A stretch of DNA of 64,000 nucleotides from an uncultured Ruegeria sp. (GCF_947497005.1 NZ_CANMFF010000019.1:24175-88174), one strand, 5' to 3'. Positions 12,266 through 64,000 are shown, numbered from the stretch's first letter. Notes: generated by a model from the letters alone, not told the origin. Made by a program: numbers and translations.

Positions 12266-13764
12266 ATCGGCTGTCCCAGTCGGAACGTGATGATTTTGTC
12301 CGCACCATCCGGTTTTGTCAGGCGAGCTGTGATCTGATTGGCTGTATCATTGGGCGTGATGCGAAAAAATGCCTGGGCCTTTTCGCCGTTCTGTATCAGC
12401 TCAACGGGCTGCGCGGCCTCTCTATCTGTTGTTATAGATGCCGCGGTGATACCGGCTTCCCCAATATGCATTTCGATATCAAGCGGGGTATCGCGGCGCA
12501 GAGGTGCAGACAGGATCAGATAGGCTGCCGCGCCAGGTGCATCGATTGGAAAGACCCCAACTCTCTGGTGGCTGCCCGGCCCAAAGCGCTGATACGCGGT
12601 CAGCAGAATGCCCAGAAGGATCAGCAGATAGATCCAGCGGGACATCCCCAACCCACGCCAGATGCGTCGGAGCGGGCCGTATTGTGCCGCCTCAGGGGCC
12701 AGCCGTGCCGCAAAGATCAAGGCGCCTGTCAGGGCAACGCCGGCGGCCAAAAGGCCTGACAGAACCCAGAGACCCAGTGAAACTGCGCCGCCCCAGGTGC
12801 CGAAATGCAATGTGTTCATCAGTGCCTTCCAGCGTGCGAAGCCGCGGGTATCATCCGGGGTGAACGCGCCGAGCACCTCAAGGGTCACCGGATCGACCGA
12901 CACGCTGCCCCATCCGCTCGTTTTCGCAAAACCGGCCACTGGGCCTTCAAAGCCAAAAGTACCGGACGGATCGCCGGGCAGCACCATGACAAGCGGCTCC
13001 AGGCCAGGCAAGGCGGCAACAGCGCTTGCCTCGGCCTGTTCAAGGGTGTCGGAACTGAAACCGATAGGCAGGGTGGTGTCACGGGCGGAAGTGGGCTGAG
13101 GTTTTGGGGTTGTACCTTCGAACCCCAGGCCGCCGAGCATGAAATAGAAGCTGGTGATTGCAATCAGGATCAGAAGGGGCGCGGCCCAGAGGGCCGTCAG
13201 CCGGTGCGTGGCACCGGACCAGGATCTGAACCCCCCGGCGCGTTTGGGCCAGCGGAAAAATCCTTTCCAGAAACGCCGGTAGGTAATCAGCCCGCTGACG
13301 ATCTGATACAGAAGCAGAACAGATGTTGCCGAGATCAGGATGAAGATGGGGCGTTTGGTGGTCAGAAACGTATCATGCAGATCGCGCAGGATATCGCGAA
13401 ACCCGCCATCCCTCGTTTCGTAAACGACTGCTCCGGTCGCCGGGTCGGTCCAGAAGCTGATGTTTTCGCCCCAGCCGGTTCGCCCGAAGGTGCGATCTGC
13501 AAACCAGGGGGCGGGGTATTTCTCGATGACGAACACAGTGCTTTCGGGATGGGTGGTTTTAATGCCGTCATAGATTTCCGCAAAACTGGCGGTTCGGTCT
13601 TCTTTGGCAATGGTGGTCCAGATTTCCGGTCGGGCAATGGATTCAACCTCGATACCGACGACAAGCACCGTCCCCGTCAGGAACATAAAGGTAAAGAAGA
13701 TCGACAGGTGTAACCCCAACCAGGTGTGCAGGGAAAATAGCCAGTTGCGAAAGGTTCGGTTCAT
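12259..13764 (-). CDS. PepSY-associated TM helix domain protein
   Basis: RNWLFSLHTWLGLHLSIFFTFMFLTGTVLVVGIEVE, LHDTFLTTKRPIFILISATSVLLLYQIVSGLITYRRFWKGFFRWPKR; PepSY_TM signature. Confidence 0.86.
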   Translation of the reverse strand: MNRTFRNWLFSLHTWLGLHLSIFFTFMFLTGTVLVVGIEVESIARPEIWTTIAKEDRTASFAEIYDGIKTTHPESTVFVIEKYPAPWFADRTFGRTGWGENISFWTDPATGAVVYETRDGGFRDILRDLHDTFLTTKRPIFILISATSVLLLYQIVSGLITYRRFWKGFFRWPKRAGGFRSWSGATHRLTALWAAPLLILIAITSFYFMLGGLGFEGTTPKPQPTSARDTTLPIGFSSDTLEQAEASAVAALPGLEPLVMVLPGDPSGTFGFEGPVAGFAKTSGWGSVSVDPVTLEVLGAFTPDDTRGFARWKALMNTLHFGTWGGAVSLGLWVLSGLLAAGVALTGALIFAARLAPEAAQYGPLRRIWRGLGMSRWIYLLILLGILLTAYQRFGPGSHQRVGVFPIDAPGAAAYLILSAPLRRDTPLDIEMHIGEAGITAASITTDREAAQPVELIQNGEKAQAFFRITPNDTANQITARLTKPDGADKIITFRLGQPIW

Positions 13765-33305: not shown

Positions 33306-33936
33306 GCGTAACGTCTCCTCGCTAATAGGCAGGCACAAGGAACAAACGGCTAAAAACAACTTCCGATTGAGGATGCGTGCCTGAACTTGGTACAATAACA
33401 GTCCAAGGCTACACGAAACTTTCGGGTCGTCGAAGGAGAAATATGGCCGCCCCCGGGTTTCTGGTCTTTTTCTCTTCTGGCGTGGTCTGCTGGTCCTTTG
33501 TGAAGTGCTGAAAATGGACAGTGCATCGAAATGATTTGCATTGTTTCCCGCCCTGTGCGGCACGCAGGCGCGCGCCATGTGAAAAGGTTGTTTCGGTTGC
33601 ACCTTATCGCGGAGAGATCGAGTACAGTTTTGCACCGTTTAAACCTGCTCGGATTATGTGTGGTGCCGTGCCAGAACGCTCGGAATCGCTGGAAGTCGGC
33701 ATGTTTTTCCAGACGCAGATTCGCCTTATTTGGGCGATTCTGGTTCACGTTAAAGAAACAAACTGTAATCAATGAACTTATTGTGCTGGCCAAAGGGGCA
33801 TTGCGCCAAAAAAAAGCCACAGTTCCGAGGAAAATCCTTCGCAATCAAATAGAAATGAATTATTAATGTTTGCAGTAGGTGCCCTGCCGGGATTTCGAGC
33901 GGGTTGTGTGTATAAAAATCAAAGGTGGGACTTTGT

Positions 33937-34503
33937 ATGTTTAGAAGTTTGAAAATGATGGCGGCAGGGGTTGTTGCTGCTGTAATGATGGCCGGATCGG
34001 CCAGTGCGCTGACCTCGGTGTCAGCGGGTGGCGGCCCTCTGGCAGGGGGTGGATATGACATCACCTCCGACACGCTCTTCTCTGGTACGGTTTCCACAAT
34101 GGGTGGACCGGGATCGTACGCAATCAACTTCCAGTCGCCCATTGATCCTCTTTCTGGTGTTGCGAACGCTTCGATCACCATCAATTTGCTGAGTACGTTC
34201 ACAGGTCTGACGGTGAGCTGGGTCGACGCATTGAACCCTGCCAACGTTTTGGCATCGACGTTTGTTCTGGGCGGTGTTCAGACAACACTCAGCACACTGT
34301 TCAGCAGTGTCAGCCCGAACACCCTAAGCCAGAACTTAGTGTTCAGCTGGGCCAACTCTCAAGGGGCGACAGATTCCAATGGTAACCTGGTTCCGGTTAC
34401 GTTTGACTTCGACGTGGCTCCGGTTCCGCTGCCCGCCGGTGGTTTGCTGCTTCTGACTGCGCTTGGCGGTTTGGCTCTGACGCGCCGCCGCAAGGCCGCC
34501 TGA
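33937..34503 (+). CDS. VPLPA-CTERM sorting-domain protein (exosortase substrate)
   Basis: Signal peptide MFRSLKMMAAGVVAAVMMAGSASA; C-terminus VAPVPLPAGGLLLLTALGGLALTRRRKAA = VPLPA motif + TM + Arg cluster; RBS-like aaaggtggga upstream. Confidence 0.95.
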   Translation: MFRSLKMMAAGVVAAVMMAGSASALTSVSAGGGPLAGGGYDITSDTLFSGTVSTMGGPGSYAINFQSPIDPLSGVANASITINLLSTFTGLTVSWVDALNPANVLASTFVLGGVQTTLSTLFSSVSPNTLSQNLVFSWANSQGATDSNGNLVPVTFDFDVAPVPLPAGGLLLLTALGGLALTRRRKAA

Positions 34504-44879: not shown

Positions 44880-45010
44880 CTTTCAGTTTCGCGGCCTGCA
44901 GTATCCACAATCAGGGCATTCCGCGCTCAATGTCCCGAAACGGATCAAAATAGCGGGAGCTTGAGCCGTCATAATTTCAGTCCGCACCTTATTATGCATG
45001 ATGGGCAGTG

Positions 45011-46630
45011 ATGCATCGTTCCGATTCTAAAAACAGCCGCAGCAATATCCTTGAAGCGGCCCGGGCGGGTCTGCCGGTCATAAACACCGTCGGGCTGTTC
45101 TGGTTTGTCCTGTTGCTGCTTGGGTCGGTGCCCGTTTTCTGGATCGGGATCGTGTCTCTGGGGGCCGCATGGAGCACCCCTGAATACAGCCATGGCCCGC
45201 TGATTCCGATCATTTCGCTGTATCTGTTCCTGCGCGAATTGCGGGACATGCCGCCACCCAATCCGGTTGTGCATGATCGCTGGCCCGGTGTGGCGGTGAT
45301 TGCCGTTGCCCTGCTCATCGCCATTCTGGGTAATCTGGCCCGCATCCCCGATATCGTCACCTATGCGATGATCATCTGGGTGGGCGGTGTCATGCTGACC
45401 GTGTTCGGCTGGCAGCGGGGCAAATACCATCAGCTGCCCGTGCTGCATCTGGTGTTCATGCTGCCCCTGCCACAGTTCGTCTATTGGAAGCTCACGATCT
45501 TCCTGCAATGGATTTCCTCCGAGCTGGGTGTCTGGTTCGTGCAAATGGCCGGTGTTTCGGTCTTTATCGAAGGCAACATCATCGATCTGGGGGTCTACAA
45601 ACTGCAGGTGGCCGAGGCCTGTTCCGGGCTGCGCTACCTGTTCCCGATCCTCAGTTTCTCGTACCTCTTTGCCCTGCTTTATCGGGGGCCGATCTGGCAC
45701 AAGGCGGTTCTGTTGATCTCGGCAGCCCCTTTGACCGTGTTGATGAACTCGATCCGCATCGGCGTCATCGGCGTGCTGGTCAATCAGCACGGCATCGAGC
45801 AGGCCGAAGGCTTCATGCATTTCTTTGAAGGCTGGATCATCTTCCTGCTCTGCGTCGCCATTCTGTTCCTGATGGCAATCGGCTTGCAGCGTCTGGCTCC
45901 GAACCCGCAACCCTTCAGCGAGACCATCGATCTGGATACTCAGGGGCTGGGGTCTGTTGCGTTGCGGATCGTTGGCATTCGCGCATCGATGGCGCTGGCC
46001 GTTGCGGCCCTTCTGACGCTTGTGGTTTCAACCGCCTGGACCCTGCGGCCCGCTTCCGAAGTGCAGCCTGTCGAGCGTGATCCGTTTGTTCTCTATCCAC
46101 GGCAACTTGGCCCCTGGTCCGGGTCGACCACCACGCTGGATGCGCAGGTTGAGCAGGTATTGGGCGCCAGCGATTACCTCAATGCCACCTATATCAATAC
46201 CGGATCGGGCGATTTTGTGAACATGTTCGTGGCCTTCTACGACAAGCAAACCGAAGGTGACGGCATCCATTCACCCGAGGTGTGTCTGCCGGTTGGCGGC
46301 TGGGAAATCTTCAGCCTCGAACCGTATGAGATCAACCCCGGCGACACGCCATATGGCAGCTTTACGGTCAACCGCGCGGTGATCCAGAAAGAACTGTCAA
46401 AACAGCTGGTCTATTACTGGTTCGAACAGCGCGGCAAACGTATGGTCAACGATTTCCGTGCCAAGATGAGCGTCATTCAAGACGGCTTCACCATGGGTCG
46501 CACTGATGGGGCCATGGTCCGTTATGTGACCCCTATCCTACCCGGCGAAACCGAAGCGGATGCGGATGCAAGATTGCAGAGGTTCATGGAACCAAGCCTG
46601 AACCGTCTGCCGCGGTTTGTACCATTTTAA
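45011..46630 (+). CDS. xrtD: VPLPA-CTERM-specific exosortase fused to EpsI domain (XrtD type)
   Basis: Catalytic triad context [13 protein letters not shown] / [12 protein letters not shown] / [17 protein letters not shown]-terminal Eps[18 protein letters not shown]. Start ATG 45011 or GTG 45008. Confidence 0.95.
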
Positions 46631-48483: not shown

Positions 48484-49740
48484 TTACCCTTTCCAGATGC
48501 GCTTATAGGCAGCAATCAGCGCGGGCACCTGATGGGGCCAGGCCATTTCCGCCTCGACCCGGGCGCGACCGTAACGGCCCATGACAGCGCGACGGTCGTC
48601 ATCGGCCAGCAACTCGGTGATCTTGTCGGCCATATCCACCGGATCGTTGGCCTTTGCATAAAGCGAGGCCTCTTGTGCCGAAAACCGCCCTTCGGTCACA
48701 TCAAACTGAACGATGGGCTTTTCGAACGCCATGTATTCGAGGATCTTGTTCATGGTGGATTTGTCGTTCATCTCGTTCACCCGGTCCGGGTTCACGCAGA
48801 CATCGGCGGTCGATAGAATCTCGAACAGATCCTGATCGGGCGCGCGGCCGGTGAAGGTGACGTAATCCGACAGACCCATTTCGGCAGATTGTTCCTGCAG
48901 CTTGTCAAGGCTGGGGCCCCCGCCCACAAGGCAGAACTGGATGTCGTCGCGGCCCTGAACCTTGACCAGATGCGCGACAGACTCCAACAGCAGGTCGATG
49001 CCTTCCTGATCGCCCATGACGCCGACATAGCCCACCATATATTTCCGCCCGTTGCGCCAGTCCGGGTTCGACGGCAGGTGCTGCAGGCGGCTGAGGTCAG
49101 GACCGGACCGGACGATAAACACATCCTCGGGCGCCATGCCGCCGCGTTCGATGGCGATCTTGCGATAACTTTCATTGGTGGCAATCGACACCCGGGCCGA
49201 GGCGAAGGTCAGCCGTTCAAACGTCTTCATCAGCTTCCAGAAGAAACCGCGCTTGTCGAATTTCGCCTCGTAAAGCTCGGGATTGATGTCGTGGTGATCA
49301 AACAGATAACGCACGCCAAACAGCTTGAAGGGCAGCGCCACCAGAAAGATCAGATCGGGCGGGTTGCAGCCATGGATGACGTGAAAGCCACGGGTGAATT
49401 TGATCTTCAGCGCCAGCCAGCTTTCCCAGAACAGCGCCGCGCCATATTCCAGCAGGTACCCCAGCGCGCCGCTGGCATCCAAAGGCAGCGGGTGGCGATA
49501 GACCTTGATGCCTTCGTCTTCCCACACGCGCTCCTCATGCCCCTTGCCGGTGGGGCAGATGACCGAGACCAGCGCGCCCGCGGCGGCCAGCGTGCGCGCC
49601 TCCATCCACACACGGCGGTCGAAGGGCACGGGCAGGTTTTCCACCACGATCAGAACCTTCAGCCCTTTCAGGGGCTGGCTCTGGCGCAGTTCCTCGAATG
49701 AGATCGGCTGAACGGCAGATACGGGGCTAGTCATATTCAT
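48484..49740 (-). CDS. glycosyltransferase family 4
   Basis: KVLIVVENLPVPFDRRVWMEARTLAAAGALVSVICPTGKG ... GYVGVMGDQEGIDLLLESV ... MNDKSTMNKILEYMAFEKPIVQFDVTEGRFS. Confidence 0.94.
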   Translation of the reverse strand: MNMTSPVSAVQPISFEELRQSQPLKGLKVLIVVENLPVPFDRRVWMEARTLAAAGALVSVICPTGKGHEERVWEDEGIKVYRHPLPLDASGALGYLLEYGAALFWESWLALKIKFTRGFHVIHGCNPPDLIFLVALPFKLFGVRYLFDHHDINPELYEAKFDKRGFFWKLMKTFERLTFASARVSIATNESYRKIAIERGGMAPEDVFIVRSGPDLSRLQHLPSNPDWRNGRKYMVGYVGVMGDQEGIDLLLESVAHLVKVQGRDDIQFCLVGGGPSLDKLQEQSAEMGLSDYVTFTGRAPDQDLFEILSTADVCVNPDRVNEMNDKSTMNKILEYMAFEKPIVQFDVTEGRFSAQEASLYAKANDPVDMADKITELLADDDRRAVMGRYGRARVEAEMAWPHQVPALIAAYKRIWKG

Positions 49741-50989
49741 AGGTTCTTACCACCTCTGTGTCGCCAAGGGTCAGCTCGTTCACGATCCGGTTCGATCCGA
49801 TCACCAGATCCCAGGGCCCGGCCTCGGCCTCGGCCCGATCCACCAGCAGGCTGCCCACTGTAGGCAGATGGGTAAAGGTATAGCCCAGGTTTTGACCCCG
49901 CAGATCGGCGGGTTTGATCGCCGGATCATAGACCGACAGCTGATACCCCGCCTGCAGCAAGCGCCGGGCGATGTCGACATTGGGGCTTTCGCGCAGATCG
50001 TCGGTTCCCGCCTTGAAGGCCAGCCCCGCCATCAGCACCCTGCCGCCCTCGGGCAGCCGGTCCATGATGTCCTGCGCCTGATAGGTCTTATGCGCCTGAT
50101 TGGTCTGCAACAGGCTGTCGATCAGATGGGTATGCGCGCCCACCTCACCGGCGATATGCTGCAGCGCACGCACATCCTTGGGCAGGCACGAGCCCCCGAA
50201 CGCCCCCCCCGGACGGGTGTAATAGGGTGAGATGTTCAGCTTGGTGTCCGACACGAAAATCTCGTGCATGGTTTTGGCCGACACACCCATGCTGTGGCAG
50301 ATCCGGCCGACCTCATTGGCAAAAGCCACCTTGGTCGCGTGCCAGGTGTTGTCGACGAACTTGGTGATCTCGGCCTCTTCGAACGCGGTGTAGAACACCG
50401 GCGCGTCCAGACCTTCGTGCATTTCGTCCATCACCGCCGAGCGATTGCCGTCTGCCGTGCCGACAACGATCTTGGGCGGGTTGAAGAAATCATCCACCGC
50501 CGAAGCCTCGCGCAGGAATTCGGGGTTATAGACGATCTCGACCGCCTGTGCTGTCCGCTCACCCAGAGTGCTGCGGAAGATCGGCTCGATCAGTTGGCGC
50601 ACGGTGCCGGGGCGGAAGGTCGACCGGTATGCCACGGTCAGCGGTCGCGCCCGGTCGGGCGAGACGGCCTTGGCAATCTGGCGCGTCACCTCGGCCACGA
50701 AATTCATGTTATGCGAGCCATCGGTTGAACTGGGCGTGCCGACGCAGACAATGGCCAGATCCACATCGGACAGATCGGGGATTTCGACCGTCGCGCGGAT
50801 CAGGTTCTTTGCAAGCGCCCCGGCCAGCAGTTCGGCCACCTTGGGTTCCTTGATCGGGGGTTGCCCCGCGTTGATTTCGGAAACCTTGTCAGCGTTCACA
50901 TCGACGCCGATCACCTCGTGCCCTTCACGGGTCAGACAGCACGCCGCCGTGAACCCGACATATCCCAAACCGAAAATCGCAATCTTCAT
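49727..50989 (-). CDS. nucleotide sugar dehydrogenase (UDP-glucose/GDP-mannose dehydrogenase family)
   Basis: MKIAIFGLGYVGFTAACCLTREGHEVIGVDVNADKVSEINAG ... GGAFGGSCLPKDVRAL ... LAFKAGTDDLRESPNVDIARRL. Confidence 0.95.
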   Translation of the reverse strand: MKIAIFGLGYVGFTAACCLTREGHEVIGVDVNADKVSEINAGQPPIKEPKVAELLAGALAKNLIRATVEIPDLSDVDLAIVCVGTPSSTDGSHNMNFVAEVTRQIAKAVSPDRARPLTVAYRSTFRPGTVRQLIEPIFRSTLGERTAQAVEIVYNPEFLREASAVDDFFNPPKIVVGTADGNRSAVMDEMHEGLDAPVFYTAFEEAEITKFVDNTWHATKVAFANEVGRICHSMGVSAKTMHEIFVSDTKLNISPYYTRPGGAFGGSCLPKDVRALQHIAGEVGAHTHLIDSLLQTNQAHKTYQAQDIMDRLPEGGRVLMAGLAFKAGTDDLRESPNVDIARRLLQAGYQLSVYDPAIKPADLRGQNLGYTFTHLPTVGSLLVDRAEAEAGPWDLVIGSNRIVNELTLGDTEVVRTYEYD

Positions 50990-51346: not shown

Positions 51347-52897
51347 TTGAAGCCTCCAGCTAAACCAGGCGTGACGATCGCCCCGGGCACACCCGATCAC
51401 AGCGCGACCCTTACCAGGGGGGCCGCAACATTGTTTGCGTCCGGTATTTTCAGCCAGTTTCTGGGCGTTTTGACATTGGTTGTAACGGCCCGTCTTCTGA
51501 CGCCGACGGATTTCGGGATCATCGCCTATTTCATAATCGCTGCCGCGTTTCTGGAAATCGTCCAGCGGGCCGTTTCCATGATCCTGATCCGCCAGCCCGA
51601 GATCACCGACGATCACCTGAATACCGTGTTCACAATGCAACTGCTGCTTGGGGTCTTTTCGGCGCTGCTGATCTGGGCCAGCGCACCTCTGATGACATTT
51701 TTCGGGCTTGCGGAGCTGACATCGCTTATTCCCGCGCTTTGCTTCATTGCCATCGCAAGTTCCGTCAAAAGCACGCGCTTTCCACTTTTGGAAAGAGATC
51801 TCCGGTTCGGTTTCATCGCAGGCGAAGAAACGACCAGCAGAATTGCATATACCCTGATGGCCGTCAGCCTCACATGGATATGGCGCGATTACTGGGCCAT
51901 CGTGGTTGCCAGCGTCATCACACAGGTCATCCGGGTCATCTGGAGCTTTTCCGTCGCCCCGATGCGGCCCAGGTTAACGCTCAGGTGCTGGCATGATTGC
52001 ATTGATGTGTCGTCATGGTCACTGGGGGCCCAGATCACCCAGTTTCTGATCAACAACATGCCCCAGATCGTCATCGGAAGCTCATTAGGGCTGGCCGATG
52101 CGGGGATTTTCAGGGTTGGCTATCGCCTTGTGATCCTGTTCACCAGTCAGATCATCGGCCCATTGGAGCGGGTGGTCTATCCAAGCCTTGCCAATACCTC
52201 CAGGACCCAGGGCTCCAGCCGGGAAGCCTTCGAACAGGTCAATGCCATCCTTTTGGGGATCATCGTTCCCGCCAGTGTCGGCATGGCCCTGGTCGCCAAC
52301 CACCTGATCGTTGTCGTGGCCGGGTATCAATGGCTGGCTGCCGCACAAGTCATCTGGGTGCTTGCTCCGCTAAAAGCAATCGAGACGTTGCAGGCCAATG
52401 TCCGATCTGCCAGCTATGTCGAAGGCTCTACAAAGCGCCTGTTCCTGCGCAACATGATCCTGCTGATCGCTACAACTGCGCTGACGGTGCTGGGATCAAG
52501 CTATGGCTTCACCGGCGCGATCCTGGGCTCCGGAGCCGCCAGCCTGTTTGCAATCGGTCTGGCGTTAAGCATGGCCAAGGATTTCGGGACCGGCGGATTT
52601 CTGACACCAATCTTGGAGGCTTGGCGTACATTTGTATCGACCTTTGTCATGTTGCTTGCCGTTCTATTTGTCAGCAGCGCCTACGGCAGCGGCGACGCGG
52701 TGGGATGGGCTTACGAGACAGCGGAAGACTTGCCATTACTGCGCATCCGGTTTTCGATCAAAGTATTAGTCGGGGTTTTTGTATATGTCGGCACGCATTT
52801 GCTACTCTGGCGCCTTGCCGGGAAGCCAAAGGGCTTTGAAAGTCTAGCACTGGATATGGCCGCCAAAGCCAAAGCCAGGTTTATTCCGGCAAATTAA
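51347..52897 (+). CDS. oligosaccharide flippase / lipopolysaccharide biosynthesis protein (Wzx-like)
   Basis: GAATLFASGIFSQFLGVLTLVVTARLLTPTDFGIIAYF; ~12-14 TM; TTG start with ggaaagg upstream. Confidence 0.88.
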   Translation: MKPPAKPGVTIAPGTPDHSATLTRGAATLFASGIFSQFLGVLTLVVTARLLTPTDFGIIAYFIIAAAFLEIVQRAVSMILIRQPEITDDHLNTVFTMQLLLGVFSALLIWASAPLMTFFGLAELTSLIPALCFIAIASSVKSTRFPLLERDLRFGFIAGEETTSRIAYTLMAVSLTWIWRDYWAIVVASVITQVIRVIWSFSVAPMRPRLTLRCWHDCIDVSSWSLGAQITQFLINNMPQIVIGSSLGLADAGIFRVGYRLVILFTSQIIGPLERVVYPSLANTSRTQGSSREAFEQVNAILLGIIVPASVGMALVANHLIVVVAGYQWLAAAQVIWVLAPLKAIETLQANVRSASYVEGSTKRLFLRNMILLIATTALTVLGSSYGFTGAILGSGAASLFAIGLALSMAKDFGTGGFLTPILEAWRTFVSTFVMLLAVLFVSSAYGSGDAVGWAYETAEDLPLLRIRFSIKVLVGVFVYVGTHLLLWRLAGKPKGFESLALDMAAKAKARFIPAN

Positions 52898-58670: not shown

Positions 58671-59347
58671 CAAGACCCATCGGCATCAACTTTCACGGCA
58701 TCGGAACGCCTGAGCGTCCTCTGGAGCCGGGCGAAGCCCCCTATTGGCTTTCAGTCGAGCAATTCGAACGGGTTCTGGACCGGATCGCCACAGCCCCCGA
58801 TACGAACCGGTTCACCATTACCTTCGATGACAGCAATCTTTCGGATCATGATATCGCCCTGCCAGCGCTGTCGGCCCGGGGGCTTCGGGCACGGTTCTTT
58901 GTCCTGACCGGGCGGATCGGGCAGGCCGGGTCATTGGATACCGGACATCTGCACGCATTGCAGGCCGCCGGCATGATAATCGGCAGCCATGGGGTCGACC
59001 ATCTTGCCTGGCCAACACTGGATGACGCCGTTCTGGTCCGAGAACTCAGCGAATCCCGCGCACAGTTGGAAACGATATGCGGCTGCCCGGTGGTCGAAGC
59101 GGGCATTCCCTTTGGCCGCTACGATACACGGGTGTTACGTGCGCTGCGCGATGCGGGCTACACTACGGCCTGGTCAAGCGACGGAGGCATCTGGCGCAAA
59201 AACGCATTTATACGCCCCCGCACATCGCTGCGCGAGGATATGAGCGATCAGGATTTGAAGGCGATCTTGTCGGGTCACATGCCGCTCGCGCGCCGCTTTC
59301 GGCGCGCATTGGGCATGACCCGTCGGCGCTGGACGACCACAGGTTAG
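58667..59347 (+). CDS. polysaccharide deacetylase family protein
   Basis: FTITFDDSNLSDHDIALPAL, GMIIGSHGVDHLAWPTL, VVEAGIPFGRYDTRVLRAL; ATGA overlap with upstream gene. Confidence 0.88.
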   Translation: MTRPIGINFHGIGTPERPLEPGEAPYWLSVEQFERVLDRIATAPDTNRFTITFDDSNLSDHDIALPALSARGLRARFFVLTGRIGQAGSLDTGHLHALQAAGMIIGSHGVDHLAWPTLDDAVLVRELSESRAQLETICGCPVVEAGIPFGRYDTRVLRALRDAGYTTAWSSDGGIWRKNAFIRPRTSLREDMSDQDLKAILSGHMPLARRFRRALGMTRRRWTTTG

Positions 59348-60708
59348 CGGGCGCGTGCGACGCGCCCGGTAGACAGCTCGCCAGGCAGGGCCTGAGAAAA
59401 CCGGGTATATCGCACCTTTTTGTCTGCCTGGTCGGCCTGTGCCTGATCCCCGTCCTGCCCGGATTCGTCACCCGCATCCAAAAACCAGACCCCCGCCCCA
59501 AGAAAGAACATCAAGAAACAGAACGTGGCGTCCCACAAATGCACCGTAACGGCTGACATGATCAGACCGAACAATGAGATCAGATATCCCAGACGGGCAT
59601 CCGCCGTCGCCCCACTGAGTTGCTTGCCCCCAACCCGGAAGAAAAGGATAGCCACTGCACCAACCAGCAGGAGCAACCCTGGAAGCCCGTGCCGCAAGGC
59701 GATCACAAGCCAGAAATTATCGACACTGCTTATTGTCCACATCCATGCTGGGCGGGTCCAGTCATTAAGGCCAATCCCAAATATTGGATTTCTCAGAACA
59801 TCGTCTGAGGCAAAATTGAAGATGTGAATTCGCATCCATGCTGTTCCGGGTGACAACGTGAAATGCGTGGCAAAGATCTGAAACATGCTCCGGTTGGATA
59901 ATATTTCACCTAAAAAAAACAGCACGCCAAATCCGATAATCAGAATTTTCCACTTGCTCTTGAGGAATTGAAAACACCAACTCCAAGCCATCAACATCAT
60001 CTGAATGATGACATTCAGAAAGGCACCCGATGAAAGCGAAAAGAAAACAACACCCGCGACAACGGATGTAAGGCTGGCCCTAGAATAGAACGATTTTCCC
60101 CATCCTAGAACATACCAAGTCAGCGCAAAAGCCGGTGCACAAAATACCCCGAACAGGATCGGGTGTGGCATTGTTGTCTGAGCTCGCATCAAACCCAACC
60201 GTGGCGGGAATTTCCACCCCTGCCAAGGATACACATTCAGGGCCTTGCCGAAGATATCCAGCAGCGGCGCTTTGCCCGTACTAGCCTCAAAAGCGGCAAA
60301 TGGCAGAAGGATCAACATAAGAATAAAGAAGCATTTCACGAAATACCTAAATGCTCCAAGATTGCGTATATATGTCCGGGCTATAAAATATGGTGCGAGA
60401 GTTTCGATCATGAACATCCCGATAAATTCCCACAGTGTCCCGAGGCCATGGTTCACGGCAAGAGAAAGCGCCGCCCAAAACGCAAAGCCAATGACCAGAA
60501 AATCGATTCCTCTAATCTTTCCGGCGCGACCGCTAAGCCAGCCAAAAACAGCGGGGAACATGAAGATGATCAAAATCGTCCGGTACCCGTTGAGCTTCAA
60601 CCCGCCCAAAAGAAAGAAGAATGGCATTGCAAAGGAAAATATCAAAAGCCCCAGCACAAGCGGCTTTGTCACCTCGGCTTTGGCTTTTGCTGATAGAAGC
60701 GTAGTCAT
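59344..60708 (-). CDS. O-antigen ligase / Wzy-like polymerase family membrane protein
   Basis: Polytopic; NPIFGIGLNDWTRPAWM ... VIALRHGLPGLLLLVGAVAILFFR typical of Wzy_C region; start MTTLLSAKAKAEV at 60708 or upstream 60750. Confidence 0.85.
   Translation of the reverse strand: MTTLLSAKAKAEVTKPLVLGLLIFSFAMPFFFLLGGLKLNGYRTILIIFMFPAVFGWLSGRAGKIRGIDFLVIGFAFWAALSLAVNHGLGTLWEFIGMFMIETLAPYFIARTYIRNLGAFRYFVKCFFILMLILLPFAAFEASTGKAPLLDIFGKALNVYPWQGWKFPPRLGLMRAQTTMPHPILFGVFCAPAFALTWYVLGWGKSFYSRASLTSVVAGVVFFSLSSGAFLNVIIQMMLMAWSWCFQFLKSKWKILIIGFGVLFFLGEILSNRSMFQIFATHFTLSPGTAWMRIHIFNFASDDVLRNPIFGIGLNDWTRPAWMWTISSVDNFWLVIALRHGLPGLLLLVGAVAILFFRVGGKQLSGATADARLGYLISLFGLIMSAVTVHLWDATFCFLMFFLGAGVWFLDAGDESGQDGDQAQADQADKKVRYTRFSQALPGELSTGRVARAR
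59348..59368. terminator. perfect inverted repeat at convergent gene junction (possible terminator)
   Basis: CGGGCGCGT-GCG-ACGCGCCCG, 9-bp stem, 3-nt loop, immediately 3' of the + strand stop; no U-tract. Confidence 0.45.
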
Positions 60709-60833
60709 CCAAATCTTTGCTCTCTTGTGACCGGGTTGGCTGAACCACATACATCCAGATGTTCACCTATGGACCGATCTACCTCATGGCCTGTCGACGC
60801 CAAGCCAGATGCCAACATTTCCGCTATCATGTC

Positions 60834-62108
60834 TTACCTGCGCGAAGGATATGTTTCCGCCAATGTCGACCCGGCTTGCAACTGATCGATCACCCCCCCC
60901 TGGCGCACACCGTATTCATTGTATCCGTTTCGGCGACCAATCGCATAATAGATGAACTCATTATCGTAATAGCCGCCTCGCGACGGGCTTTGATCCTGAA
61001 TGATTGCATTGTTGAGAACCACCCAATCGCGCTGCCCTTCATACCCTATTATCGGCGCCGTCGCATTCTGTTCGATCACCACGGATGTTGAATCCGATGA
61101 AATGTTGATGGTTGGAACTGAATGTCCTCCTGGAACATGGATTAATGTATTTTTTCGAACAGATATATTGTCCGAACCATGAATCGAGATGCCATGGATA
61201 TGACCATTGTAGATTATGTTGTTCTCGATCAGCACATTCCGGTGCCGCATTTGGCGGTCCCCTAGGTCCTGACCATCACCACCCGCCCAGATCGTTTGGG
61301 TGAAACCACCGACGCCCATGTCAAAAATATTGCCCCGGATAGTAATATTCATGCTTCCGCTTTTATTCGCACGCTGAATCTGGATCATGTCACGATGATC
61401 TTGTGAGCCGGCTTTGCTACCGAAATCGTGAAAATAGTTCCGCTCGACCCAGATGTCATCGACATTATCGAAAACCAAACCATCAGAACGGATCGAATGA
61501 ACATGACTGTCGGTAATACTGACCTCACTTGAATTGATTGCCATAATCCCCTTCCACCAGTTTTTGAATTCTGTATTCTCGATATCAACATCCGTTGTGT
61601 ATAGGATCAGCAGACCAAGCCCGGTACCATCACCATCAGCAAGTGTTTCTGTACCTTCAGCCTGATCTCCTCCAAAAACTGAGTTTGAAATTTTAACCTT
61701 ACTGCTGTTCTGAATAGCGAAGTAAGCAATGTGTTCCGGCTCTCCGCGCTTGAAAATGTAGTCAAAGTAGATGCCATCCAGATGAAGATTACTGGTCTCT
61801 TTGATCTCCATACGATTAAAGCAAGCTGGCTTTCGAGGATCTGCCGATCTAATCACGACAGCTGACGGAAATGCCTTGCCCAGCTTCAGAGTGCCATAGT
61901 TGCCGGGTGCAAGCAGATAGGTCTCACCGCCACGGGCATTCTGTAAAGCACCTGCTAGTGCAGCTGCGTCAGAAATGACCTGGCCTTCGGTCTGGGCCGT
62001 AAATCTGGGTTTGAAATGCTGTATATCGCAGGGCGTCTTCGCATGCAGGGCAGGGCTTAACAGCAGCAGGATCGTACCTGCCAGCGCAAGAATACGTGAT
62101 CTGGGCAT
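60834..62108 (-). CDS. secreted right-handed parallel beta-helix protein (PL6/epimerase-like fold)
   Basis: Sec signal MPRSRILALAGTILLLLSPALHA; repeated beta-helix turns SSEVSITDSHVHSIRSDGLVFDNVDDIWVERNYFHDFG ... QDHRDMIQIQRAN. Confidence 0.88.
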   Translation of the reverse strand: MPRSRILALAGTILLLLSPALHAKTPCDIQHFKPRFTAQTEGQVISDAAALAGALQNARGGETYLLAPGNYGTLKLGKAFPSAVVIRSADPRKPACFNRMEIKETSNLHLDGIYFDYIFKRGEPEHIAYFAIQNSSKVKISNSVFGGDQAEGTETLADGDGTGLGLLILYTTDVDIENTEFKNWWKGIMAINSSEVSITDSHVHSIRSDGLVFDNVDDIWVERNYFHDFGSKAGSQDHRDMIQIQRANKSGSMNITIRGNIFDMGVGGFTQTIWAGGDGQDLGDRQMRHRNVLIENNIIYNGHIHGISIHGSDNISVRKNTLIHVPGGHSVPTINISSDSTSVVIEQNATAPIIGYEGQRDWVVLNNAIIQDQSPSRGGYYDNEFIYYAIGRRNGYNEYGVRQGGVIDQLQAGSTLAETYPSRR

Positions 62109-62600
62109 GACGCACCTTTCTGATCTGCGGCCGTTCGAAAGCTTAGGCGAACCGCCGCATGCTGTCTATTGTGGCGCGCCTCGGATCTCATGACATTTCC
62201 GGGACACCGCCCGGGATCAAAGCGGTGCTTTTCCGGGCTGGCTTTCATTAAATCTGCAAGTTTCCGTTGGGGCACCGGGCAATTCATTGCCGACAGTTAT
62301 CAGAGATACGCAAGGACGCGCCGGAATAATGGCGATTATGTGTTCATTGTTGCTTAAAAGGAATCAGTTAGTCAAATACGCGGCAACCGCCAAGGGAAGT
62401 GGAACAATTCCCAGTATCGAGTATCGAGTTCACTCGGAAATGAAAGCGCAGGGGCAGAATTGTCCCCATACGGGCAACAATTTCCAAACATAGCCATATT
62501 TAGGCCACTCTGCCGCCCTCACGCGGCTGTTCCATTCGTCCTGGGTGTGCGGGAACTCGTGCGCTGCCACTCACAGCGCCTATGAAACAGAAGGTGAAAT

Positions 62601-64000
62601 ATGTCGACGACAATCACGGTAACCTCTGCGGCAGAGCTGAACCAGGCCTTGTCACAGGCGACAGGTGGGGAAACGATACTGCTTGCAGCTGGCGACTACG
62701 GCAAGCTCAGCCTGAACGGTACACAGTTTTCATCCTACGTAACGATTAAATCCGCTGATCCGAATGTGCCGGCAAGCTTTTCGGCGGTCGGCCTCAGCCA
62801 GGCATCAAATATCACGTTTGATACCATCTTGTTTGACTACACCGCCAGTTCCGGTGATCCAGAGCATCTAAGCGTTTTTAGCGTTTATAACAGCTCGAAT
62901 GTCACCTTCACCAACTCGGTCTTCGACGGCGATATTTCCAGCGGTACTGGCACCGGCACCGGTTTGCTCATCAACGGTTCCAGCAACATTGACATTAACA
63001 ACACCGAGTTCAAAAACTGGTGGAAGGCCGTCATCACCGTGAATACCAACGGCATTGATGTCACTGGCAACGATATTCATTCGATCCGATCAGATGGCCT
63101 AGTCTTCGACAACGTAGATAATATCAAGGTCGAGCAGAACTATATTCACGATTTCGGTGGTCTGGCCGGTTCCGGCGACCATCGCGACATGATTCAGATC
63201 CAGCGCGCCAATGGTAGCGGCAGCGACAACATCATCATTCGCGACAATGTCTTCGATATGGGCCAGGGGGATTTCACCCAAACCATTTGGGCTGGCGGCG
63301 ACGGCAAAGACACCAGCAATCCGAATGTCCAGCACAAAAACTTACTGATAGAAGGCAATGTAATTTACAATGGTCACCTCCACGGCATTTCTCTTTATGG
63401 CGTGGATGGATTGACGATCCGAAAAAACACTGTTCTGCACGTAGATGATAAGACTCTGACAGGTAGTGTCGAGGTGCCAGTCATTAACGTTTCGTCAGAT
63501 TCACAGAACGTCACGATCACCCAAAATATCACATCGCAGATTCTGGGGCATAATGGCCAGGCGGGCTGGACTGTTGCCGACAACGTCCTGATCAAGCCCA
63601 CCGAATACGACCAGCACTTTACCTACCAGGCTACGGCGCAGACGGACGGCTATAATCAGTACGTCGTCAAACCAGGAAGCCCGGCCGCTTTGCTCAGTGC
63701 AGGCTCTGACCTCGCAAACAGCATTTCGGGCACGTACTTTGATTGGCTGAATAGCAACGGGCATTCCGGGGCCGGTACGCCGTCTCAGCCCAATACCCCA
63801 ACGAACCCACCCAATATCGGATCGAACCCACCACCTGATACCGGGGGTGACCAACCCGCAACCGGGGGTGACCAGCCCACGACCGGGGATGACCAGCCCA
63901 CGACCGGGGATGACCAGCCCACAGCCGGGGATGACCAGCCCACAGCCGGGGACGACCAGCCCACAGCCGGGGATGACCAGCCCACAGCCGGGGACGACCA
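62601..64000 (+). CDS. right-handed parallel beta-helix protein without Sec signal, 3' end beyond window
   Basis: Manual translation MSTTITVTSAAELNQALSQATGGETILLAAGDYGKLSLNG ... NNTEFKNWWKAVITVNTNGIDVTGNDIHSIRSDGLVFDNVDNIKVEQNYIHDFG ... GDHRDMIQIQRANGSGS; open at window end, so missing from ORF track. Confidence 0.88.
   Translation, partial: MSTTITVTSAAELNQALSQATGGETILLAAGDYGKLSLNGTQFSSYVTIKSADPNVPASFSAVGLSQASNITFDTILFDYTASSGDPEHLSVFSVYNSSNVTFTNSVFDGDISSGTGTGTGLLINGSSNIDINNTEFKNWWKAVITVNTNGIDVTGNDIHSIRSDGLVFDNVDNIKVEQNYIHDFGGLAGSGDHRDMIQIQRANGSGSDNIIIRDNVFDMGQGDFTQTIWAGGDGKDTSNPNVQHKNLLIEGNVIYNGHLHGISLYGVDGLTIRKNTVLHVDDKTLTGSVEVPVINVSSDSQNVTITQNITSQILGHNGQAGWTVADNVLIKPTEYDQHFTYQATAQTDGYNQYVVKPGSPAALLSAGSDLANSISGTYFDWLNSNGHSGAGTPSQPNTPTNPPNIGSNPPPDTGGDQPATGGDQPTTGDDQPTTGDDQPTAGDDQPTAGDDQPTAGDDQPTAGDD
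63846..64000 (+). repeat. 21-bp tandem repeat, 7 full units + 8 bp, encoding (G/D)DQP(A/T)(T/A)G
   Basis: Units such as gatgaccagcccacagccggg at 63846, 63867, 63888, 63909, 63930, 63951, 63972; continues past window edge. Confidence 0.97.

Follow-up and report, generated by a model that had tools for sequence, protein, structure and literature searches.

What would an exopolysaccharide locus of a Ruegeria gain from two closely related beta-helix proteins, encoded back to back, of which one begins with a Sec signal and the other does not? The pair lies at the end of the 64,000-nucleotide stretch of DNA from an uncultured Ruegeria sp. that we analysed (the window):

59344-60750, minus strand: O-antigen ligase or Wzy-like polymerase (Wzy_C PF04932, E 1.4e-6, just below the gathering score)
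60834-62108, minus strand: beta-helix protein of 424 residues, predicted periplasmic, here the Sec copy (open reading frame, Pfam PF13229, structural model, orthologs)
62037-62108, minus strand: Sec-type signal peptide of this protein, residues ~1-24 (hydropathy)
62109-62600, no strand: divergent intergenic region between both genes, 492 bp (open reading frame coordinates)
62601-64000, plus strand: N-terminal part of the exported copy, cut by the contig end (open reading frame, contig mapping, BLASTP, hydropathy)

The original prediction, that the two proteins are paralogs along their whole core, was borne out: both reading frames are present, all the sequence blocks that it had quoted were found, and BLASTP aligns the minus and plus proteins over 382 residues with 52% identity and 68% positives (E 7e-138). 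An ortholog of the Sec copy is present in ten Ruegeria genomes, and the divergent arrangement of the pair is kept in Ruegeria relatives. What had been said of the termini and the setting also held. The minus protein begins MPRSRILALAGTILLLLSPALHA-, with a hydropathy peak of 2.86 over 12 residues and a probable cleavage at ALHA-K, and 83 bp separate the end of its gene from the Wzy_C-like gene that follows in the same orientation. The plus protein begins MSTTITVTS- and goes straight into the helix (62610-63704, then a linker), with an N-terminal hydropathy of 0.53 and hence without a Sec signal, and it carries a repeat tail encoded by a 21-bp array.

Both copies match the Pfam Beta_helix model PF13229 (43.8 and 43.0 bits, cut-off 25.9; E 2.7e-11 for the minus copy), as do 70 of 70 family members, which makes them right-handed beta-helix proteins, and an NCBIfam search of the pair matched generic beta-helix models alone. 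The minus copy also scores above the cut-off for copper-binding NosD (PF05048, 28.2 against 23.6), but this reflects generic beta-helix overlap, and we rejected a NosD identity because the locus is of the EPS/exosortase type with no nos cluster. A VPLPA sorting segment was found at neither C-terminus (...TYPSRR in the minus and ...LYADLFA in the plus protein), and neither matched TIGR03370.

The end of the exported copy had to be read across the ends of its contig, C19, at the following repeat:

63840-64000, plus strand: linker of 7-residue tandem repeats (GDDQPTA), continuing at the other contig end (TRF; C19:1-116)

The window corresponds to C19:24175-88174, and position 64000 is the last base of this 88174-bp contig and falls inside the 21-bp repeat (7.7 copies with 93% matches within the window). 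The repeat recurs, still in frame, in bases 1-116 of C19, and the frame stays open until a stop at C19:510. An intact plus-copy ortholog of 688 residues occurs in a related genome (G028), and the methyltransferase and glycosyltransferase genes 3' of it are those near the start of C19. Since repeat and frame resume at the other contig end and the gene order of G028 agrees, C19, which carries an RPA replication initiator (E 6e-102), ParA and ParB, is almost certainly one circular plasmid of ~88 kb opened within the coding repeat. The truncation of the plus gene is an effect of assembly and not biological, and because the contig was opened inside a coding repeat, annotation will give two truncated genes.

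Extension past position 64000, which the original prediction had proposed as a search for RTX repeats or a type I secretion (T1SS) signal, gave a divided answer. No GGxGxD repeat occurs in the plus copy or its continued tail, and the stop comes within ~170 codons of the join; an RTX tail was rejected. The C-terminus is nevertheless of a non-RTX kind, acidic and then hydrophobic up to the terminal ...LYADLFA, and together with a start that has no hydrophobic stretch this gives the plus copy the features of a T1SS substrate. Between repeat and stop (C19:117-510) are ~130 residues that align patchily to the jelly-roll domain of G028, so that this domain is shortened or degraded in the window strain relative to G028. 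In a further genome (G001) the jelly roll is likewise eroded, and the last residues (YADLFA / LYDLFA) nevertheless remain alike, as if the export signal alone had been retained. The tail region of other Ruegeria copies models as a ConA/LamG-type jelly roll with moderate confidence (pLDDT 71), and Pfam recognises PKD and LamG tail domains in further relatives; the 7-residue repeat itself is a low-complexity sequence that orthologs lack or have in another form. Of the family members whose ends are complete, only two Amylibacter proteins and one distant row contain GGxGxD. In the Amylibacter loci (L032:5755-9272 and L028:5502-9018) two non-Sec helix genes stand in tandem; the leading gene of each encodes GGxGxD four times, which makes these the clearest examples of RTX among the members.

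The wider family has more than 100 relatives in Rhodobacterales. From genome contigs we recovered 72 loci, almost all in Rhodobacterales, and the family is carried by 20 of 148 relative genomes and by 42 of 298 genomes of the host's taxonomic family (41 genera). Assigned by N-terminal hydropathy, its members split almost evenly into Sec and non-Sec classes, the latter with a median length of 734 residues. By Fisher and Mann-Whitney values that ignore relatedness, the classes differ in the presence of T1SS ABC/HlyD/TolC genes immediately 5' on the same strand (15/46 non-Sec against 1/38 Sec, Fisher p 5e-4) and in C-terminal charge (median -6 against 0, p 6e-15); an acidic-then-hydrophobic terminal motif is found in 39/50 non-Sec against 5/58 Sec proteins, and 37/56 against 16/58 are free of cysteine. 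In phylogenetically independent pairs the C-terminal trend was 3-4 to 0 (p 0.125) and T1SS adjacency was uninformative. The acidic-then-hydrophobic motif agrees with what has been described for the extreme C-terminus of T1SS lipases and proteases (PMC2642768). Pairs of a Sec and a non-Sec copy occur in about eight genera, namely Ruegeria, Puniceibacterium, Rubellimicrobium, Roseivivax, Cypionkella, Actibacterium, Flavimaricola and other Rhodobacteraceae. No T1SS genes were found on C19 itself, the nearest ABC and HlyD proteins of the window genome (44% and 36% to the Aliiroseovarius pair) being encoded on other contigs, and most Ruegeria pair loci showed none within the ~15-20 kb stretches searched. 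The Sec-type helix gene of Pseudorhodobacter turbinis is annotated as two reading frames (L010:11923-12450 and 12471-13178), probably a frameshifted or decayed copy. In IMG/VR viral contigs there were two matches alone (L139 and L140, relatives at 36% and 33%), which may be parts of plasmids or chromosomes wrongly filed as viral, or may reflect genuine carriage by phages.

How did the Ruegeria pair come about? In the tree most Sec copies fall in one large set; the ten Ruegeria Sec copies, however, nest among the Ruegeria members of the non-Sec clade (21 rows, SH-aLRT 100), and a constraint to a single Sec clade was rejected, likewise when the other odd Sec rows were left out (AU p 6.8e-5). From this placement within the exported clade, the pair appears to have formed again in Ruegeria; in the simplest reading a T1SS-type gene was duplicated as an inverted tandem, and one copy acquired a signal peptide and lost its tail. 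Among the ten Ruegeria rows listed, each of nine Sec copies has two cysteines at fixed sites (C27 and C96 in the window Sec copy) and the window plus copy has none, a pattern that would fit an oxidising periplasm on one side and type I export on the other. Two further groupings were seen. The Sec copy of Ruegeria HKCCSA071 (L016:6244-10028) branches with the helix gene beside it and not with other Ruegeria Sec copies, which suggests gene conversion or a further duplication. Gemmobacter megaterium (L034, L068) has both types on one contig, and there the Sec-type copy clusters with its non-Sec partner (SH-aLRT 99); the export route may have changed here independently for a third time.

The substrate is best approached through the surrounding genes, which make this an exosortase EPS locus:

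33925-34503, plus strand: VPLPA-CTERM protein, likely XrtD substrate (TIGR03370, 35.3 bits, cut-off 25.35)
45008-46630, plus strand: VPLPA-CTERM exosortase XrtD (TIGR04152, 684 bits, cut-off 400)
49727-50989, minus strand: predicted AlgD-like GDP-mannose 6-dehydrogenase (best PDB match 1mfz AlgD)
51347-52897, plus strand: Wzx-type flippase of the same EPS locus (PF13440, E 2.3e-51)

Also encoded are PrsT-like, chain-length and export proteins, a polysaccharide deacetylase and GNAT/FemAB-type transferases; between 54201 and 58670 three GNAT/FemAB-type acyltransferase genes stand beside the deacetylase gene. The link to XrtD extends across the family: the exosortase is present in 37/42 helix-carrying genomes against 32/256 others (p 9e-23), and in 24 of these 37 it shares a contig with the helix gene. 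The AlgD-like product, whose gene is ~11 kb from the pair, matches AlgD (1mfz) at E 1.9e-92 compared with 1.4e-60 for the next PDB match, a UDP-glucose dehydrogenase. An AlgD of this type occurs in 14/42 helix genomes against 5/256 others, and among genomes with XrtD in 13/37 with a helix gene against 1/32 without (p 9e-4); it is on the same contig in 10/10 Ruegeria genomes with the pair. Mannuronate as a universal substrate is nonetheless weakened, since the other 28 of the 42 helix genomes have no such gene and no AlgD-type match was found in two Ruegeria genomes (G027 and G046) with a single helix copy adjoining T1SS genes.

Which reaction the pair might carry out was judged from the fold and from the residues of its groove. 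AlphaFold models residues 25-424 of the Sec copy as a single-domain beta-helix (mean pLDDT 92.9), on which conserved polar residues map as follows:

61479-61490, minus strand: groove motif 1, R207-S-D209-G (R in 99%, D in 100% of 70 rows)
61380-61400, minus strand: groove motif 2, D237-H238-R-D240-M-I-Q243 (D in 99%, H/D/Q in 100% of 70 rows)
61296-61301, minus strand: groove motif 3, T270-Q271 (90% and 96% of 70 rows)
61191-61208, minus strand: groove motif 4, N301-G-H303-I-H305-G (N 97%, H 91%, H 94%)
63087-63098, plus strand: groove motif 1 of the plus copy, RSDG (alignment, sequence)
63177-63197, plus strand: groove motif 2 of the plus copy, DHRDMIQ (alignment, sequence)

By model and 70-row conservation, R207/D209, D237/H238/D240/Q243, T270/Q271 and N301/H303/H305 take the same turn-strand position on four successive coils, the position in which beta-helix lyases and epimerases have their active sites, and both window copies retain this polar array. 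No conserved groove Lys or Tyr was found in the 70-row alignment, and as a sequence signature the array (R-D / DHxDxxQ / TQ / NxHxH) differs from those of PL6 and AlgG/AlgE. Foldseek with the model returned only generic beta-helix enzymes and adhesins (TM 0.3-0.55), and the plus copy by itself matched nothing in the PDB. The comparison with PL6 and AlgG/AlgE that the original prediction had called for thus recovered the fold, at TM of 0.55 or less, but not their catalytic residues. Chain cleavage, by a lyase or a hydrolase, emerges as the most likely reaction, a choice that we hold at about even confidence, and C5-epimerisation comes second.

Within cleavage, a pair of uronate lyases with the mechanism of PL6 or of Vibrio RbmB is unlikely when taken singly. 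Chondroitinase B gives the best TM (0.55), RbmB is in the fold list, and the N-terminal cap yields a segmental profile match to PL6 AlyGC (E 1e-9); PL6 lyases and chondroitinase B further have the right-handed helix, an asparagine ladder and a similar cap in common with the Ruegeria family. The likeness is, however, limited to the cap (Pfam Chondroitinas_B matches 13/70 members with a best E of 3.5e-5, and in L048, E 0.006, the N-terminal cap only), and of the catalytic Lys/Arg pair of PL6 (PMC6879350) the motif-1 Arg is conserved but the Lys has no conserved groove counterpart; PL6 membership was rejected. RbmB, the Vibrio cholerae matrix lyase, is likewise a beta-helix enzyme from a biofilm polysaccharide cluster, with biofilm-dispersing activity (PMC11637428), but it is a single copy and no sequence relation to it was found. 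Equally improbable by itself is that the two are inverting glycoside hydrolases with three aspartates in the groove, like the GH28, GH87 and GH110 beta-helix enzymes. All three of these families are among the fold or profile matches, a hydrolase would suit loci of varied sugar make-up, and the invariant D209, followed on the next coil by D237 and D240, together with HxHG, could supply its groove; yet the aspartates are spaced 28 and 31 residues apart, with two residues between D237 and D240, unlike the adjacent DD pair of GH28, GH87 and GH110, and no full-length match was obtained.

More doubtful still is a pair of C5-epimerases acting on mannuronate, or another uronate, in a mannuronate-containing EPS, the analogy with AlgG and AlgE drawn in the original prediction. 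As an analogy of organisation it is fair: periplasmic AlgG and the T1SS-exported AlgE1-7 have in common with the Ruegeria pair the beta-helix fold, two compartments and a nearby AlgD-type dehydrogenase gene, here present in every Ruegeria pair carrier and enriched even among XrtD genomes, and AlgE6 and AlgE4 are among the fold and profile matches. The chemistry was not supported. The AlgG/AlgE motif, Tyr plus DPHD/E (PMC8824271, PMC4444821), is absent, the alignment showing DHxDMIQ and no conserved groove Tyr, and the AlgE matches are weak and fold-level (E 0.008 and 0.026 for AlgE6 and AlgE4, range 0.008-0.03), covering ~50 positions outside the catalytic motif and not the catalytic module. 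Moreover, calcium-binding RTX/R-modules as in exported epimerases are lacking, and most helix genomes have no AlgD of this type. We rejected AlgG/AlgE membership; AlgG and AlgE also have low overall similarity to one another, compared with 52% identity in the Ruegeria pair. Least likely are non-catalytic polysaccharide-binding scaffolds, one chaperoning chains past the polymerase and the other a matrix adhesin, for which the LamG/PKD lectin-like tails and the PfbA adhesin among the structural matches speak, but an invariant D/H/Q/R array in a groove is what active sites typically show, and both copies keep it even where tails degrade.

The use of two routes is not without precedent. ExoK and ExsH of Sinorhizobium meliloti are homologous GH16-type glucanases, not beta-helix proteins, and ExoK uses the Sec route. 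As in the Ruegeria pair, these are two EPS enzymes of one bacterium on the same polymer; the Ruegeria genes differ in being adjacent, divergent and inside a Wzy/XrtD locus, and in that the Sec copy derives from a T1SS-type copy. The Sinorhizobium enzymes act on succinoglycan, and one is exported by the type I system PrsDE (PMC1403797, PMC4916376). PlyA and PlyB of Rhizobium leguminosarum, compared by description, are T1SS-linked EPS glycanases that also do without classical RTX architecture; a 'novel heptapeptide repeat' is named in the title of one of the references of PMC1403797.

Taken together, our data point, with the balance about level, to a pair of EPS-cleaving beta-helix enzymes that work in two compartments on the same polysaccharide. 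The localisation is the stronger half of this claim and quite probable: because of T1SS adjacency, the C-terminal signature, the cysteine pattern, the recurring pairs and the Wzy/exosortase locus, the earlier view of one copy in the periplasm and one outside, on one polysaccharide, is well supported by comparison. Its sequence basis is the paralogy, the fold class, the conserved groove, the different termini, the locus context and the family-wide XrtD linkage, from which we infer the place of each copy, dependence on T1SS in this strain, catalysis and substrate. Both copies would act on the exopolysaccharide made by the plasmid's XrtD-type Wzx/Wzy locus. The minus copy, exported by Sec and with a predicted disulfide gained, would stay in the periplasm beside Wzy and trim or clear nascent chains there. 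The plus copy would cross both membranes by type I secretion, using its non-RTX C-terminal signal, and trim or remodel the matrix outside, where the low-complexity linker, with PKD/LamG lectin-like domains in relatives, may keep it on the extracellular polymer.

Somewhat short of even confidence, we propose that these proteins form an undescribed carbohydrate-active family (RxDG ... DHxDMIQ ... TQ ... NxHxHG), tied to XrtD, whose pair of periplasmic and type-I-secreted members was assembled at least twice, the second time by turning a Ruegeria T1SS copy into a disulfide-bearing Sec copy. Our literature search found no description of the family, its signature, the XrtD tie or the re-derived Sec copy. 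If true, this would identify a partner enzyme for the XrtD exosortase/EPS locus in marine Rhodobacterales and offer a way into biofilm and plasmid-borne life on surfaces. It would also present a natural re-targeting experiment, in which a catalytic fold switched from the type I route to the Sec route and underwent the changes expected of such a move (a signal gained, a tail lost and two cysteines gained), and would make it testable why bacteria need one EPS enzyme on either side of their outer membrane.
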